Positions 32,708 to 43,662 of a stretch of DNA of 43,662 nucleotides are shown here, piece by piece. The DNA is from an uncultured bacterium (GTDB lineage Bacteria > Verrucomicrobiota > Kiritimatiellia > PWTM01). Below the pieces are notes generated by a model. That model did no database searches and had not been told where the DNA came from. It was given only the letters and a program-made list of their open reading frames with translations. Every line of letters begins with the position of its first letter. Positions within the stretch are counted from its first letter, which is position 1. Made by a program: the position numbers and the translations under genes. The stretch lies in contig CAKZPT010000050.1 of assembly GCA_937139365.1 (NCBI GenBank), forward strand, positions 1 to 43,662, written 5' to 3'.

Positions 32708-35587
32708 TCAACCGCCAACGCGGGGCGGCCAGTCGAAGAGGGCCGGTAGCGGCGGTCCAGTTCGTGGGGATTCACCGGGCCGTCATCGGGGTCGTCGGGG
32801 GACAGCACGCCGTACCGGCGCATCTCCCATAGGTAGGGCCGCGGTGGGCGGAAACCGGGCATGTCGAAGCGGCCGATTCCCCGAGTTCGCGCCGCCCGGC
32901 TTCGATCATTTCAAGAATCGCACAATAATCAGCGTCGTCTGCGCCTCGGAAGATGGCGGCCGTGTCGTTGGAGGCCCGGCAGATCCCCCAGCCACCGGCC
33001 TCCCGCGATAGCGGCGCCAGGAGTACGGTGGATTTTCGAGGCCGGCTCAGGTTGAAGACGATGTGACGGCTGGTGGACAGCCGCGGATCGTTCCAATCCG
33101 GCCGCCAGAATGAAACGCCGCGCTCGTCCGCCAACGCCGTCCGCAACTGACGCGCCGACCCCTGGTGACACGACAGGCACCGCCGCTCGATGGCCGCCCT
33201 GGCGGCCTGGGTTACGGGCCAGTCGAAATCCGTCACCACCTGTCGGTTCTCCGCATACCCCCCGATCGAGACGGATCCGAGCGCCGCGTACGTGCCCGGA
33301 TAGGGGGCGCCGGTGTCGATCCAGTAACGGAGGATGGCCTCCTGCCGTGGGCTCGTCCGCACGCCGTGATGCGACCCGTCGAGCATCTTCAAAATCCGGC
33401 TGGCGGAGGACCCAAGAGTCCGCGGCGCGTAGTCGCTGCGGGGATCGTTCCGTCCATCTGAGAAGAGACGGGCAACCGTCATCGCATAGTAGCGGTGGCT
33501 GAACATGGGGCCCCGGTCGCCGGAGAGCAGCAGCCGGGCCGGCGGAGGAACGGGCGGATCGCGGTCGTAACCGTGGCAGCGAACACACAACTCATCAAGG
33601 ATAGGCTGCACGTCGCGCGGAAAATCGAGCACGTCGGGCATCCCGCTCACCGGTCCCGGGCGCGACAGCGGGCGAGTCGGCGCCTTGGGTGTGCGGCGGC
33701 CGGCCGCGTTGGGCGCCGCCTGCGTCCGCGGCTCGTGGCAGCCGACGCAGCCGCTCTTCTCCTCGGGCATCACGCTGGCGAAGCTCTGCATCCGCTTCAC
33801 CGCGTACCCCGCCTCGTCCTGGGCGATGAACACGAAGGCCCGAAGGGCCGGCAGTTCGAACCGAGCCGAGCCGTCTTCCTCGACGGGCACAGTGCCGACG
33901 ATCCGCTCTAGCGTGAACGTCCCGCCGTAGCTGAGGGGGTCCATCCCACCGGTGTAGTTGATCGGCTTCGGCAACGATTCGAGGATCAGCAGCCGCTTGA
34001 TCTCGCCCCGCCGCACGCTGGCCATATTGCGCCCTTCCTAGATGTCGCTGAGCACAAACTCCCCCACGGGCGATTCCAGAACGATGCGGTCCGGCACGAC
34101 CGCCTCGCGGGAACGAGGCGCCAGCGGGCGGGGCTCGTGCAACATCGCCCTATGTCGATCCCCTTCGAGCGTGAACAGGGTCACCTACCCCCAGGCAGCA
34201 GCGCGACCAGGAAACGCCCCTTTGCCGCGAGGATCGTATCCTTGTCGACTGCCCAGGGGTCGCGGTAGTCCGCCCCGACGGTTCGGCGCCGCAGGCGGGA
34301 GGGGTCGTCGGGACCGGCCTTTGGATCTAGCAGCGCCACGTGGCCGGCGTGTTCCCGCTGGCCGTGGCCAGGCGAGTCGATGAGCACCAGCCAGTTTGAG
34401 CCGGGCACCGGGCGCGCGTCGATGAACACGCTGCCGGGATGCAAGTTGCCGAACAGCACCTGGACGCCGGTCCCATCGGGGTTGGAGGTCCAGAGATGGT
34501 GGTAGTGGACCTGGGACCGGTCGACGTACTCCCAGCGCATGTACGCCACGCGGCCGTCGGGCAGCGGCCAGGGCGTGTTGTCGTGCTCGATGTTCGCCGA
34601 GATGGGCAGCACGCCGGAGCCGTCCCGATTGCAGCGGCACATTGAGGCCACCTGCGTCAGCCAGCAGTTGACCCAGCGGCGGCAGCGGCTGGAGACGAAC
34701 GCGATTCGGTCATCCGGCAACCAGGCCGGCTCGATCTCGTCGTAGCGGCCGCCGCCGTCGGTGATCCGGCGCAGACCCTTGCCGTCCGCCCGAACCTCGT
34801 AGAGGTGGAACGACGTCGTTCCGGCGCGGCGCCATGAAAACAAGATCGTTTCCCCGTCGTAATGCACGGCGGGATCGCGGATCGTTCCGCCGGGATCGTC
34901 CACGATGGTCCGCACCGCGCGGCGGGCCAGATCGATGCGGATCAACCGTCCGCCGGCCCGATAGGCGACCCGACGCTCATCCTCGGCGTAGTACGAAAAT
35001 ATTCGCGTACCAGTGGCCGTCGTCGCCGACCTCCCGCACCGCCGCGACCACCTCGCGGATTCCGGCCTTTGCGCAACGCTCCAGCGCCGCGGTTCTCAAC
35101 TCGGATTCACGAGCGGCGCGGCGCGCCGCCAACCGTTCCTCCACCGGCCCGCCCAGCCCCACCTCCCAAATGGAATACAGGCGGTGCGGCCCCGGCCGGA
35201 GGCAAAGCACCCGGAGCCAACGGCCGGTCGCCGACAAACCCCCGAGAACCTCTGTCCCCCCGCGCCCATCCGTTCGATGGGCCACGCGCCGCCACAAACG
35301 GCCGTCGTCGGAGACCTCGATCGCGTATTCGGCGGCGCACGCGGCCTCCCATCGGAGGGTCACCCGCTCGAGAGTCGCCCGCTCGCCGAATCCACCGCGA
35401 CCCATTCCGTGCCCGCTCCAAGGCTGGCCCAGCGCGTGCCGTTGCGGCCGTCAAAGGCCAGGTCGGCCCCGTAGCTCGGTTTGTGCGTCGAAGAGGATGA
35501 AAACGCCGGTAACGGCACCTCCCCAAAAGCCAAGCCGGCGCAGACGACCGCAACGACTCCACCCCCACGGAATGCATTCGAGTTCAT
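32708..35587 (-). pseudogene. Secreted PD40/CXXCH protein (HzsA-like), multiply disrupted
   Basis: One long gene can be rebuilt from fragments in three frames. It starts at an ATG (35587) overlapping the stop of the nucleotidyltransferase gene, with a signal peptide. A discoidin (F5/8 type C)-like domain follows (DLAFDGRNGTRWASLGAG, then YAIEVSDDGRLWRRV). Next come PD40 beta-propeller repeats (TDGGGRYDEIEPAWLPDD) and a C-terminal part with three CXXCH motifs (CVGCH, CVRCH, CLSCH). Lesions: a frameshift near 35390; one at a four-base run (34997-35000); one at a C5 run (about 34188); a TAG at 34038-34040; one at a C4 run (32879-32882); and one near 32740. Related to proteins annotated as hydrazine synthase alpha-like in PVC bacteria; that identity is from memory. 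Confidence 0.8.
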
Positions 35588-38593: not shown

Positions 38594-38652
38594 TCCGACG
38601 GCTGCCGACTGAAGCCCGCCACAATCCGGACGCGTTCTGCTAGACTGCGTTC

Positions 38653-40197
38653 ATGAGAACCGCGCGGGCCATGTGGGTGGGCATGGCGGTCGCCGTCGCA
38701 GTGGCCGCTCACGCCGCCCCAACGAACATCTTGTTCTGTATCGCCGACGACTGGTCGCATTCGCATGCCGGCGCCTACGGTTGCCGTTGAATATCGACAC
38801 CCGCGTTTGACCGCGTCGCGCGTTCCGGCATCCTGTTCGACCGCTGCTACACCCCGAACGCGAAGTGCGCGCCCTCGCGCGCCTGCATCATCACGGGCCG
38901 CCATCCTTGGCAGCTCGGCGCCGCCGCCAACCATGTTCCGTTCTTCCCGGCCGAACTCCCAAGTGTATTCGAAGTATTGGCCCGCCGCGGTTGGCACGTC
39001 GGCTACACCGGCAAGGGATGGTCGCCCGGCAACGCCGGCCGTCGGGAGCTCACCGGGCGCGCCTTCAACCGCCGCCAGTCCCCGCCGCCCACCTCCGGCA
39101 TCAGCTCCCTCGACTACGCTGCCAACTTCGAAGACTTTTTACGCGCTCGTCCCGCCGGCGCGCCGTTCCTCTTCTGGTACGGAGGCCTCGAGCCTCATCG
39201 CGGCTACGAGTACGGTTCCGGCCCCCGCCTCACCGGCCGTTCGCCAGTCGACGTGGATCGCGTGCCCGCGTTCTGGCCCGACCACGAGGTCGTCCGCACC
39301 GACCTGCTGGACTATGCCCTCGAAGTGGAACATTTCGGCCGCCACCTCGGCCGGATGTTGGACGTGCTCGAACAGCGCGGCGAGTGGTCGAACACCGTCG
39401 TCATCGTCACCTCGGACAACGGCATGCCGTTCCCCCGGTGCAAGGGCAACATCTACGAGCTGTCGAACCACATGCCGCTGGCCGTCGCGTGGCCGGCGGG
39501 GCTCCGGCAGCCGGGCCGGAGGTCCGCAACGCCGCGCCTATGCACTGGCCCGCCGGCAACCCGTAAACCGGTTATATGAACACCGACGGCGGCGCGACGA
39601 AGACCCTGCTTCTCGACGTGCGACGGCGCGATCCCGCCAACGCCGACGCCCAGCGGTTCTGGCAGCTCAACTTTGGACGACGCCCCTCGGAGGAACTCTA
39701 CGACCTGACCGCCGACCCGGACTGTGTGGTCAATCTCGCCGACCGTCCGGAGACCGCCGCGACGCGGGCAGCGCTGCGCCGGCGCCTGGAAGAGCGACTG
39801 GCCGCCGAGGGCGACCTGCGGTCGGCCGGCGGGGCCGGGAGTACGAGGCCCACCCTTACGCCCACCCCGACCACGTTCGCTTCTACGAGCGCTTCATGGC
39901 CGGTGAAAAGGTCCGGGCCGGCTGGATCCGACCGACGGACATCGAACACGGATTCTATTCCGCCCCCCCGTCATCCGCGCATTTGCCGCACTCCCCGACG
40001 AGGATGGCGTGCGCCTGAGGTGGGACGTGGACGGCCGCGAGCCGACGTGCGCGCCGACGGAGCTGCGGATCGAGCCGGACGTGGGCTTCCTGTCGTCGGA
40101 CCGCGGAGAGGTCCGCGTGGCGAGCGGGGGGCCGTGGACCCTGATGGCCCTCAACCCCGCCGGCACTAACCGTCAGACCGTCGCCGCCGTGCCCTGA
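38653..40197 (+). pseudogene. Secreted sulfatase (N-sulfoglucosamine type), multiply disrupted
   Basis: A signal peptide precedes NILFCIADDWSHSHAGAYG, the sulfatase metal-binding start. The formylglycine motif C-A-P-S-R survives ([17 protein letters not shown]), as do [10 protein letters not shown] and [12 protein letters not shown]. Lesions: TGA at 38788-38790 where Trp is expected; a frameshift with an apparent deletion near 39515; a TAA (39564-39566) in GNP[13 protein letters not shown], where Glu is likely; a frameshift near 39835; and another at a C7 run (39963-39969). The final part reads VIRAFAALPDEDGVRLRWD and may be a beta-sandwich tail. It resembles heparan N-sulfatase-like enzymes and lies 59 bases after dsbD. 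Confidence 0.88.
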
Positions 40198-40246: not shown

Positions 40247-41218
40247 GTGCGACGCCACGTCCAGACGTTCTTGGCTGTCGCCGGCCTGACGACGCGCGAA
40301 ATGGTCCGGCAGCCCCTGACCCTGTTGGTGACCGCCTGCGCCGTCGCCGTGGCCGCGCTGCTGCCGCTGCTGACGACCCACACCCTCGACGAGGGCGAAA
40401 AGATCATCGCCGACAACGCGCTGGCGCTGCATTTCTTTCTCGGCCTCTTTCTCGCGGCTATGTCGGCCAGCCATGCGATGTCGGCCGAACTGCGCCGCGG
40501 GACGGCGGCGGCCGTGCTGGCCAAGCCCGTGGATCGCGCGGTGTTCTTTCTGGCCAAGTACGCCGGGCTGGCCGCCGGCATGGCCATGTATTCGGCGATC
40601 CTTGCCCCGGCGACGCTGATGGCGGCCCGAGTCGTCGCGGTGCCGTTTTTCTGGGATTGGCGCGTCGAAATCCCGTTCCTATGCACCGTCCCCCTCGCGC
40701 TGCTGGGTGCGGCGGCCGCAAACTTCTTGACGCGCCGCTCGTTCGCCTCGCTGACCTGGTATTTGTTGCTGCTGTTCGTCCTGGGCGCCTTCGTAGCGGG
40801 CGGGTGGCAGCCCAAGGAGGGTATCGCACCGGAGCGTTTCGGCGCCTTCTACCTGAGGCCGATGTTCGCCGCGAACGGGCTGATCGCAGTTGCCCTTCTG
40901 GTGTTGACCGCGATCGCGCTGGCCGCCTCGACGCGGCTGGAGGCGGTGCCGACGATGGTATTGTCGGCCGGCGTCTTCCTGGTTGGACTGGTGAGCGACC
41001 ACCTGTTCGCCGGCCGGGCCGATCGGTGGTGGTGGGCGGGCGCGCTTCGCGCCGTTGTGCCGAACTGGCAGCACTTCTGGCTGGCCGACGCCGTGCTGTT
41101 GGACGCCCCAGTCCCGCCCTCGTACATCGTCGCCGTCCTCGGGTACGCGGCCGCGTACTTGATTGGCATTCTGGCGGTCGGTATCGTCATGTTCCGCTCG
41201 GCGGAAGTGAAGACCTGA
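40247..41218 (+). CDS. ABC-2 type membrane permease
   Basis: 323 residues with about six or seven hydrophobic segments. The stretch MSAELRRGTAAAVLAKPVDRAVFFLAKYAG is the classic amphipathic coupling-helix region of ABC-2 transporters (NosY/GldF-type). No ATPase gene is adjacent on the left, where the sulfatase relic lies; it may lie beyond the right edge. The GTG start has no strong Shine-Dalgarno. The stop shares a base with the ATG of the HflK-like gene (TGATG at 41216-41220), so the permease and the SPFH proteins are translationally coupled. The substrate is unknown. Confidence 0.85.
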   Translation: MRRHVQTFLAVAGLTTREMVRQPLTLLVTACAVAVAALLPLLTTHTLDEGEKIIADNALALHFFLGLFLAAMSASHAMSAELRRGTAAAVLAKPVDRAVFFLAKYAGLAAGMAMYSAILAPATLMAARVVAVPFFWDWRVEIPFLCTVPLALLGAAAANFLTRRSFASLTWYLLLLFVLGAFVAGGWQPKEGIAPERFGAFYLRPMFAANGLIAVALLVLTAIALAASTRLEAVPTMVLSAGVFLVGLVSDHLFAGRADRWWWAGALRAVVPNWQHFWLADAVLLDAPVPPSYIVAVLGYAAAYLIGILAVGIVMFRSAEVKT

Positions 41219-43137
41219 TGGACGCCACCGCGGAACGCACGGCCCTTGCCGCCGCCGTCGTTTGCGCGGCCGCGGCGGGGATCACCCTGGCGGGCGGTCC
41301 ACCGGGCCATGCCTCACGGCCTGACGCCGCCGCCGGCGTCCTTCAGGCGTGGGCCGCGCTCGTGGCGCTGGTGGTGGCCCTGCGGGAGTGGTTGGCCGGC
41401 GCCGAAAGCGCCGAAGCGGAGGAGGCAGAGGCGCTTCGAAGGCGAGCGGGCACAGGGTTGTTTGCGACCGACGCCGCCCCCTTGCCCTTCTCCGCCGCAC
41501 GGTCGCGCGCGATCCTTGAGCGCCGGATCGTCCCGCTGGTGGCGCCGCTCTTTGGCACGGTCCTGCTGCTGGCATCCCGGAGGCTCTGGCAGAAACTCCC
41601 GCCGCCGCATGAGATCGGCGCCCCCGCCACGGCCGTTACGGACCGCCTCGCCTGGTTCGGCGCCGCTACGTTTGTCCTCCTGATCCTCGCTCGGTACCTT
41701 ATCGTCGCTTCTCGCGCTCCCTCGCGGGTGCGTCTGCGGGCCGCCGGCGTGGCGGCCGCCGCGGCCGCCGGCGGCGCCGGAGCCGCCTTGGCCAGCGCAT
41801 TGGCCCTTCGCGCCGGCCTACCCGGGGCCCCTCGCATGATCAGCGCGATGCTGGCTGCCGGTCTGGCCGTGCTCGGCCTGGAACAGTGGGTATTCGCGAT
41901 TCTGGAACTGTACCGGCCGCGTCGTCCGGAAGACCCGCCTTCCTCCCCTTACGAGAGTCGGCTGGTCCGCCGACTGTGCGATCCGACGGCCTGGCTGCGC
42001 ACCGCCGCGGAATCGCTGGATTATCAGTTCGGTTTTGCGGTCTCCCGAACATGGGTCGCCGCCTTTCTGGCGCGGACGGTGGCCCCCCTCGCCGTATTGC
42101 AGGCCGCCGTGCTCTGGGGCCTGACGTGCCTAGTCGCGCTGGGGCCGGAGGAGCAAGGGTTGCGTGAACGATGGGGACGCCCGGTGGGCGGCCGCAATGG
42201 AACGACCCTTGGGCCCGGCCTACACGCGAAATGGCCCTGGCCGATCGAGATCGTCCGCCGCGCCCCGACCCGCCGCCCTCAACGCCTGTTTTTGGGCTTC
42301 GATCCGCACGGACCGGAGCCGGCCGACCTGTTGTGGAGCCGACCGCACCACGCACGGGAGGACCGGTTCCTCGCCGCCGTCACGGCGCGGGGGCCGGAGG
42401 TCTCCGCCGCATCGGGCGCCGCCCCGGCAAGCATCGTCAATGTCAACCTGCCTGTCGAATACGCAATCACCAATCTCTACGACTATTTGTACAGCGCGGC
42501 CGACCCGGCCGCCCTGATCGGGCAAATCGCCCGACGCGTCCTCACTACCGAGATCGCCGGGCGCGACGTATTCGACATCCTCGGCCCGGGGCAGGCCGGG
42601 TTCGCCGATGCCCTCTCGCGCCGGCTGGGGGAGGAAGTGGGCCGCCTGCGCTTGGGCGTGGCCATCACGTTCGTCGGCGTCCAGGGCGTCCACCCGCCGG
42701 TCGAAGTCGCGGAGGCGTTCGAGTCCGTCGTCGAGGCGATCGAGGAGCGGGAGACCGCCATCCTGTCGGGCCGCGCGCACGCTGCCAGGGTAGTTGCCAC
42801 GTCGGAGGCGTCGGCGCGGCGGATTGTCCAACTCGCGGAAGCCGCCCGCGACCGGATCCGGACCGTATCGGCGGCCGCCGCCGACAGGTTTCGTTCGCAG
42901 AAGGCCGCTCACGACGCCGGGACGCGTGTGTATCCCGGCTTCGTGGCACTGGAGACCCTGCGCCGCGCCCTCGCCGGCCCACGACTGTATGTGGTCGCCG
43001 CCACGCCGGAGCGGGAGGTCCTTCATTTGAACCTCGAGCCGAAACTGTCGTCGGTCCTCTGGGACCTAGACGATTTGACCACCAATCGTCCTGGCCCCGC
43101 CGCAGCGGGCGCGGGCCGTGGGGAGGGCTCGCGATGA
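41218..43137 (+). CDS. HflK-like SPFH protein with large N-terminal membrane domain
   Basis: 639 residues, longer than typical HflK (about 400). Residues 1-300 contain about six hydrophobic segments (for example FGTVLLLASRRLW, TFVLLILARYLIVAS and AVLQAAVLWGLTCLVAL), forming an unusual membrane domain. From about 310 the SPFH/band-7 domain begins: GLRERWGRPVGG, GPGLHAKWPWPIEIV, NVNLPVEYAITNLYDYLY and VRTVS-type coiled-coil helices near 520-570. The last block ends LNLEPKLSSVLWDLD. HflK-HflC complexes cage the FtsH protease in E. coli. It is coupled to the upstream ABC permease and overlaps hflC (ATGA at 43134-43137). Membrane-fused HflK proteins also occur elsewhere in the PVC group, from memory. 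Confidence 0.85.
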   Translation: MDATAERTALAAAVVCAAAAGITLAGGPPGHASRPDAAAGVLQAWAALVALVVALREWLAGAESAEAEEAEALRRRAGTGLFATDAAPLPFSAARSRAILERRIVPLVAPLFGTVLLLASRRLWQKLPPPHEIGAPATAVTDRLAWFGAATFVLLILARYLIVASRAPSRVRLRAAGVAAAAAAGGAGAALASALALRAGLPGAPRMISAMLAAGLAVLGLEQWVFAILELYRPRRPEDPPSSPYESRLVRRLCDPTAWLRTAAESLDYQFGFAVSRTWVAAFLARTVAPLAVLQAAVLWGLTCLVALGPEEQGLRERWGRPVGGRNGTTLGPGLHAKWPWPIEIVRRAPTRRPQRLFLGFDPHGPEPADLLWSRPHHAREDRFLAAVTARGPEVSAASGAAPASIVNVNLPVEYAITNLYDYLYSAADPAALIGQIARRVLTTEIAGRDVFDILGPGQAGFADALSRRLGEEVGRLRLGVAITFVGVQGVHPPVEVAEAFESVVEAIEERETAILSGRAHAARVVATSEASARRIVQLAEAARDRIRTVSAAAADRFRSQKAAHDAGTRVYPGFVALETLRRALAGPRLYVVAATPEREVLHLNLEPKLSSVLWDLDDLTTNRPGPAAAGAGRGEGSR

Positions 43138-43662
43138 CGCAAGTGGACTCCGGTCCCCGTCCAGGCCGCCCGTGGCTGGCCGCATTGGGTGCGGTCGTCG
43201 CGGCAGTGCTGATCCTGTCCCAGACGGTCGTCATTGTCCGCGAAGGGGAAGTGGTGGTGCCCACCACGTTCGGCCGAGTGGCCGGAGCGTCTTGGACGTC
43301 GCCTGGACCCCGGCTGCGGTGGCCGTGGCCGATCCAGGAAATCCACCGGTTCGACGCGAGGGCACAGACCTTCGAGAGCGGGATGGAACAGACGTTAACG
43401 CGCGACGGCCGGCCGGTGGTGATCTCGCTCTTCGCGGTGTGGCGCGTGGCCGACCCCATCCGGTTCCTCGAGCGCGTCGGCGGCCTCGCATCCGCGCGAC
43501 GGAACCTCAACGGCCTGCTGGCGCACGGCCGGAACACGGTGCTGGGCCGCCACGACTTCGAGGAGTTGCTGAACACCGATCCGGCGCGGTTGAAGCTGGC
43601 CGCCATCGAGTCGGAGATCGCGAACGCGACGGCCCGGGAGGCGATGGAACGGTACGGGATTG
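43134..43662 (+). CDS. hflC: HflC-like SPFH protein, N-terminal part (runs off the window)
   Basis: 176 codons are visible before the right edge. One membrane helix (LAALGAVVAAVLILSQTVV) is followed by an SPFH domain: VREGEVVVPTTFGRV, SPGPRLRWPWPIQEIHRFD, and FAVWRVADPIRFLERVGG. The order matches HflC, the partner of the HflK-like protein upstream. A GGGGAGG seven bases before the ATG supports the start, which overlaps the HflK-like stop. The C-terminal half is not in the window. Confidence 0.88.
   Translation, partial: MTQVDSGPRPGRPWLAALGAVVAAVLILSQTVVIVREGEVVVPTTFGRVAGASWTSPGPRLRWPWPIQEIHRFDARAQTFESGMEQTLTRDGRPVVISLFAVWRVADPIRFLERVGGLASARRNLNGLLAHGRNTVLGRHDFEELLNTDPARLKLAAIESEIANATAREAMERYGI

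Follow-up and report, generated by a model that had tools for sequence, protein, structure and literature searches.

The 3' end of the stretch of DNA analysed here, a window of 43,662 nt that constitutes contig C50 (CAKZPT010000050.1) in the genome of an uncultured bacterium of the Kiritimatiellia, carries the start of an operon encoding an ATP-binding cassette (ABC)-2 type permease subunit (PERM), an HflK-like SPFH protein (K), HflC, a third SPFH protein (K2) and a P1B-type metal ATPase. The gene cluster is conserved across a broad group of bacteria, most of them uncultured, where it is found as part of a larger ABC exporter cluster, and we regard it as an even call whether the SPFH proteins build a dome around this exporter, the metal pump or both, rather than around FtsH. 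Bacterial SPFH proteins are best known through their FtsH or NfeD partners, and to our knowledge it is unclear what most of the others organise. Here, the order of the genes points to a candidate SPFH client, which one form of the system even carries fused to the scaffold itself, such that the idea of SPFH proteins organising transporters becomes directly testable in bacteria.

Structure of the SPFH operon

PERM is 323 aa long, starts with GTG and lies at 40247..41218 on the forward strand, as do all the operon features described below. It overlaps K (639 aa; 41218..43137) by a single base, the A of TGATG, and K overlaps HflC (43134..43662) by four bases (ATGA), in agreement with a preliminary description of this locus, made from the window alone, which had noted overlaps of one to four bases. 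K was identified through a Band_7 match of 43.9 bits, an AF2 model with seven predicted transmembrane helices, and its position in a phylogenetic tree. Only the first 176 residues of HflC are present in the window (Band_7, 64.8 bits), because C50, one of the 117 contigs of this 2.82 Mb genome, ends at 43662. The first 24 bases of contig C103, when reversed, are identical to the last 24 bases of the window; reading across this overlap gives a complete, in-frame HflC of 318 aa, an assignment in accord with the tree, followed by K2 (344 aa), which overlaps HflC by 4 bases, and a P1B ATPase of 634 residues, which overlaps K2 by 23 bases. As the order permease-K-HflC-K2-P1B is contiguous in two congeners (L044 and L045), the joining of C50 to C103 is supported. 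The third SPFH gene and the metal ATPase had been missed by the preliminary description, as had the nature of the extra domain of K.

Conservation of the gene order

Contigs from one genome per species were scanned by likeness to K alone, and the best 80 of 177 relatives were kept as loci. They are labelled, among other names, as Kiritimatiellae, Lentisphaerae, Verrucomicrobia, Planctomycetota, Auribacter and, in two cases, as Nostoc isolates. Neighbouring genes were called using profiles made from the closer loci, that of the ABC ATPase being built from seven sequences, two of which (from L067 and L069) are other ABC ATPases. HflC comes after K in 78 of the 80 loci, and K2 after HflC in 74, the remaining loci ending there. 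PERM neighbours K in 71 loci, of which 43 have both genes on one strand (at a distance of 1.9 kb in L127) and 28 have them divergently oriented; five of the nine loci lacking it begin at, or within, K's side of a contig end. Since the loci were chosen by likeness to K alone, the recurrence of the order in 71-78 of them is more than chance. Hence the fixed order of permease, HflK-like protein and HflC proposed from the window holds among its relatives. Overlaps of 1 or 4 bases are also common in the closer loci, the window's own included, being found at 16 of 24 PERM/K junctions, 14/25 between K and HflC, 15/25 between HflC and K2 (one of these 25 values is a contig-break artefact in L047) and 4/22 between K2 and the P1B ATPase.

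Further downstream, 66 loci have room for a gene after K2; the next recognised gene is the P1B ATPase in 46, an ABC ATPase in 19 and neither in one. Altogether the P1B ATPase is present in 55 of the 80 loci, lying upstream of PERM in nine. In 47 loci, or in 46 without L136, the ABC ATPase comes immediately after K2 or the P1B ATPase; its identification in L136 is doubtful because this gene, 1.7 kb away, is identical with the one in L067. A second ABC-2 permease follows the ABC ATPase in 37 loci, and in 35 the next gene encodes a protein that we refer to as TPR-like.

In a set of 97 relatives, which shares some genomes with the 80 loci and is therefore not independent of them, K was matched in 44 (E value threshold 1e-3) and its N-terminal domain in 31 (1e-5). 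Twenty-nine of the latter were counted as K; G068 and G086 were not, since their matches are weak and lie in other frames of around 390 residues. Of 288 genomes from across the phylum, 145 have a match to K at an E value of 1e-20, and among the matches listed approximately 115 reach the N-terminal domain. This domain is thus no peculiarity of the window, but is present in other members of the family. A scan of plasmids yielded 10 records matching the SPFH end only, covering at most 52% of the query, and no relative was found among viral contigs; a library of anti-phage systems gave no match for the window proteins, the ABC ATPase drawing general ABC/AAA matches. The two loci assigned to Nostoc isolates (L140 and L142) are contigs of approximately 10.4 kb with K, HflC and K2 and a divergent permease in the style of the Planctomycetes, for which planctomycete contamination seems likely.

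The ABC exporter module

The match of PERM to the Pfam family ABC2_membrane_4 (E value 0.00024, 21.6 bits) falls below the 27 bit cut-off, hence its assignment rests on context and on profile-level similarity to the second ABC-2 permease found in relatives (probability 95.1, P value 3e-8, 115 columns). Part of this context comes from six genomes lacking K. In two of these (G020 and G065), PERM, the ABC ATPase, the second permease and the TPR-like gene are contiguous, and the position of PERM directly before the ABC ATPase indicates that it is part of the ABC exporter. Two others (G009 and G028) have the ABC ATPase, second permease and TPR-like gene together, PERM not adjoining them, and in the last two (G029 and G038) the TPR-like gene has no neighbouring ABC ATPase. 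Where all the components stand together, the SPFH/P1B block sits between PERM and the ABC ATPase.

The ABC ATPase is nearest to the DrrA, RbbA, GldA and NodI models. The module resembles the DrrA, GldA and NodI exporters in the combination of an ABC ATPase with ABC-2 permeases, of which there are two here; however, the ATPase scores below the cut-offs of these models, the TPR-like protein has no counterpart in Pfam (no family at an E value of 1 for the one sequence scanned), and the SPFH block intervenes. The name 'TPR-like' is itself an impression from the sequence and not the result of a tool; an example is found at L092 16931-18346, after the second ABC-2 permease. The gene is found in 82 of the 97 relatives (E value 1e-10), in 28 of the 29 genomes with K versus 54 of the 68 without it (Fisher's exact test, P value 0.035). 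K thus nearly always comes with the module, and the module itself emerges as an ABC exporter with a wide distribution in the group.

The genome to which the window belongs has an ABC ATPase 62% identical to the operon kind on contig C61, along with the first part of the second permease, the remainder of which lies on C15 with the TPR-like gene. C61 and C15 have no terminal overlap, and the joining of the two halves of the permease relies on their positions in the profile only. An ABC ATPase directly downstream of the SPFH genes was considered for this genome and rejected, the next ATPase being the P1B protein. Hence the expectation of an ATPase downstream was borne out with an ABC ATPase in the 47 loci described above, but in the genome itself with one of the P-type.

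The P1B ATPase and its fusion to an SPFH domain

The P1B ATPase exceeds the cut-off of TIGR01525, the model for heavy metal ATPases, by a wide margin (513.8 bits against 346.25). Its best matches in the PDB, at 280-282 bits, are 7qbz (named in its entry as cadmium-translocating), 3rfu (copper efflux) and 4umv (zinc). Among 65 aligned sequences, some of them from the same genomes, the motif DKTGT is present in all 65 and CPC, carried by the protein of the window's genome, in 50; the second cysteine is altered in 12 and the first in three. These features are shared with P1B ATPases such as 7qbz, CopA and ZntA. However, the motif of the last helix, mostly H-N-x-G-S/T ... N-S-x-R-L, is presumably neither that of ZntA nor that of CopA, and one form of the protein is fused to an SPFH domain.

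This fusion is encoded by a second cluster in the same genome (contig C48; L009 130-3009), in which the P1B ATPase and an HflK-like SPFH domain form one reading frame, with HflC and another SPFH gene, the third, coming next. It is present in five genomes, namely this one, three congeners and G176, from another class, which also encodes the K, HflC, K2, P1B ATPase and ABC ATPase of the main operon; a further location is L202 4867-8109, on the minus strand. In the fusion, the pump occupies the place held in K by the N-terminal membrane domain. In congeners L070 and L072, two conserved genes of approximately 240 and 1050 aa precede the fusion.

It is possible, if somewhat doubtful, that the cage serves the metal pump first and foremost, with the N-terminal domain of K or the P1B ATPase itself tethered to the dome and the ABC genes being neighbours by history. 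Such an arrangement would fit the presence of the P1B ATPase in 55 of the 80 loci, the invariance of its catalytic DKTGT motif, the five genomes in which an entire P1B ATPase is joined to an HflK-like SPFH domain, the predicted metal transporter fold of the K membrane domain, and the retention in the window's own genus of the P1B ATPase with K but not of the ABC ATPase. It fits less well with the 14 loci that have the ABC ATPase with no P1B ATPase nearby, with the changes to the second (12/65) and first (3/65) cysteines of CPC, and with the permease staying beside K in 71 loci.

The N-terminal domain of K

About 304 residues precede the SPFH domain of K, much as the preliminary description had estimated. 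An AF2 model built from 50 sequences (pLDDT 83.6) has seven transmembrane helices, the SPFH domains and a long coiled-coil helix. The first six helices (residues 1-238; 41218..41931) are predicted to adopt the fold of the cation diffusion facilitator (CDF) transporters: residues 1-237 of the full model align with YiiP with a VIA Z score of 18.9 and a root mean square deviation (rmsd) of 2.8 Å over 197 residues. When the domain was predicted alone (pLDDT 89.2, pTM 0.85), these values were 18.7 and 3.1 Å over 201 residues; VIA ranks 1-26 were then all CDF proteins, the first protein of another kind appearing at a Z score of 9.5. The first 14 Foldseek rows for the isolated domain were likewise CDF proteins, but with E values of 0.095 to 0.86, and for the domain within the whole model the E value was 0.044; as Foldseek alone is weak here, the fold assignment rests on the VIA scores and on sequence profiles. 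Comparison by hhalign of 50 K domains with 25 CDF domains of relatives gave a probability of 95.0 (P value 3.7e-8, 187 columns), with at most 1.9 for the controls, which comprised reversed profiles, 20 column shuffles and both ABC-2 permeases. Cation_efflux was the second most frequent Pfam match, found in four of the 50 K members (best E value 0.002), and was not matched by the K of the window at E values up to 1. A domain that had been assigned to no recognisable family therefore resolves to a predicted CDF-like fold. That it represents a second ABC-2 permease was considered and rejected, the profile probabilities being 0.2 with PERM and 1.9 with the second permease against 95 for CDF.

The metal ligands of CDF transporters, which we take to be a quartet on helices 2 and 5, were recovered in the 25 CDF sequences as [HDN]xxxD in the first part of 19 and HxxxD in the second part of 17. 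At the aligned columns of K (42, 46, 179 and 183), ligand-type residues (D, E, H, N or C) are found in just 7, 0, 2 and 15 of the 50 sequences, respectively, and hence the known metal site is gone. K therefore shares with YiiP, ZnT and SLC30A10, which transport zinc or manganese, a predicted six-helix fold and a remote sequence likeness, but differs in lacking their ligands and in having a seventh helix and an SPFH part behind it. Joined to a scaffold without its ligands, the domain would represent a new fate for the CDF fold, and its role is, by our inference, that of an adaptor in the membrane and not of a transporter. The acidic residues at positions 222 (50 of 50 sequences) and 66 (47 of 50) might be taken as signs that the domain moves ions through other residues, making K itself a transporter; given the composition of the four ligand columns, this is very improbable.

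The strongest signature of K is the predicted cytosolic loop before helix 7 (residues 233-278; 41914..42051), in which counts along the alignment reveal the near-invariant pattern YRPR ... S ... P ... DYQFGF ... S, with the tyrosine of YRPR at 232. The seventh helix (residues 279-302; 42052..42123) lies at the position of the single transmembrane helix in HflK and HflC, based on the AF2 model and an HflC profile match beginning at position 283. Lysine and arginine occur at approximately 0.13-0.21 per residue in the loops predicted to be inside, compared with 0.06-0.10 in those outside; this agrees with the predicted topology, which places the SPFH part outside, although the loop between helices 2 and 3 is equally rich in acids. 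The SPFH side of HflK/C is likewise given as outside in PMC2636767.

Relationship to HflK, HflC and FtsH

K matches solved HflK and HflC structures only from its last helix onward. Its SPFH domains (residues 305-492; 42130..42693) were delimited by the AF2 model, Foldseek matches to 7vhq and 9cz2, and Band_7, and are followed by a long helix (residues 499-567; 42712..42918) that is predicted, from the model and from the HflK profile alignment, to form a coiled coil like that of HflK. With its transmembrane helix, SPFH domains and coiled coil, K falls within the wider definition of an HflK/C-type protein in terms of predicted structure. Yet both K (95.2 bits) and K2 (97.2 bits) score below the equivalog cut-off of the HflK model TIGR01933 (159.4), which the last SPFH gene of the second cluster exceeds (165.9). 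Against the HflC model TIGR01932 (cut-off 134.4), the truncated fragment in the window scores 39.7 bits, while a relative of full length, from L086, scores 139.8. A tree was built from 68 SPFH sequences, in which K (support 100/99), K2 (99/92) and HflC (100/97) form separate group-wide clades, apart from E. coli HflK and HflC, from two ordinary-looking HflK/C pairs of the same class (L073 and L074) and from the fusion cluster. The bootstrap of this tree had not converged, and 17 of its inner branches are open. Contig C115 of the same genome (L010 6184-9548) encodes two adjacent large SPFH proteins that appear to be different in kind from HflK/C.

The system resembles the E. coli HflK/HflC cage in its SPFH domains, coiled coil, HflK-HflC gene pair and predicted periplasmic location. 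Unlike that cage, it has three SPFH genes, six additional helices in K, ABC and P1B neighbours and no FtsH-like frame nearby. FtsH hexamers are held by HflK/C cages (PMC13220708), and the present system may be a variant of HflK/C that still partners FtsH, the transporters being co-regulated substrates. K and K2 are HflK-like, HflC passes the HflC cut-off in a relative, the SPFH part is structurally nearest to HflK/C, solved partly with FtsH, and FtsH is encoded in the window's genome, where every HflK/C pair belongs to one of the two clusters. Nevertheless, we consider a role with FtsH rather unlikely: K and K2 are under the HflK equivalog cut-off, a genome of the same family (G007) has an ordinary-looking HflK/C pair beside this system, and a motif scan of the 80 loci (1.15 Mb), which recovered the FtsH of the window's genome as a positive control, detected no FtsH-like frame.

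A possible transporter cage

The three genes of the window open an operon that is part of a larger ABC exporter cluster of the Planctomycetes-Verrucomicrobia group. This cluster has a pair of ABC-2 permeases, a single ABC ATPase and a TPR-like protein, with a dedicated SPFH module of the HflK/HflC type (three proteins) and the P1B ATPase among them. K, K2 and HflC would form a periplasmic dome as HflK/C do, enclosing the exporter and/or the P1B pump in place of FtsH and keeping these within a single patch of membrane. K may use its CDF domain, devoid of ligands, to dock either or both of these within the membrane, its conserved cytosolic loop could touch the ATPase or permease of the transporter, and the pumps would discharge within or under the dome. 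In favour of this reading are the conserved order of the genes, the contiguous exporter genes of two genomes lacking K, the near-constant company of K and the TPR-like gene, the separate clades of K, K2 and HflC, the P1B-SPFH fusions, the CDF fold, the agreement of the charge distribution with the topology, and the lack of an FtsH-like frame in the motif scan of the 80 loci. Gene order, family identities, ligand loss, fusion and the place of the block in an ABC operon are observed, and the CDF fold and the topology are predicted, whereas we infer the assembly of the cage, its contents, the docking, and the direction and substrate of transport. A more elaborate picture, offered tentatively as one that could well be mistaken, is that of a closed dome walling off a patch of inner membrane such that the ABC exporter and P1B pump empty into a private chamber; the CDF domain would then descend from a metal transporter that has given up transport to act as an adaptor, and the P1B-SPFH fusion would follow the same plan, its pump being built directly into the wall.

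Several observations weigh against the enclosure of a transporter by the dome. Four loci with upstream sequence (L089, L114, L118 and L136) have no recognisable PERM; 14 of the 47 that carry the ABC ATPase lack a P1B ATPase nearby; and 11 of the 39 with room after the P1B ATPase (12 with L136) lack such an ABC ATPase there. In the window's own genome and in congener G002, as also in G013, the genes for the ABC ATPase, the second permease and the TPR-like protein lie apart from the SPFH operon. The module is often found in the absence of K, and so the exporter seems not to need the cage. The proposal in the preliminary description that an SPFH ring organises an ABC exporter rather than FtsH is thus sustained in part, in that there is a link between the SPFH genes and an ABC exporter operon; FtsH is nonetheless encoded in the genome.

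The separability of the genes, with PERM divergent in 28 loci and the P1B ATPase upstream in nine, could also mean that these are envelope genes travelling together for co-regulation only, with no common complex. This is improbable, in that the overlapping starts, the position of the block within the ABC operon and the P1B-SPFH fusions all point to contact.

The pairing of an SPFH gene with a fixed membrane partner is also found in the SPFH-NfeD operons, as set out in PMC2636767 (Hinderhofer 2009), but here the partner is a transporter; the main text of that paper contains no word beginning with 'transporter' or 'ATPase'. Among the papers listed by searches of the open-access full-text literature, none was seen to describe this system, and the main texts of essential gene studies in Planctopirus limnophila (PMC10632474) and Verrucomicrobium spinosum (PMC12283558) gave no word matches.

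Other features of the window

Just 5' of the permease, a sulfatase-like gene (38640-40170) appears to be decayed, with pieces in all three frames and a stop near the start. On the minus strand, the frames at 32772-35405 resemble, to judge by their translations, pieces of one cytochrome/propeller/discoidin-like protein that is possibly frameshifted.

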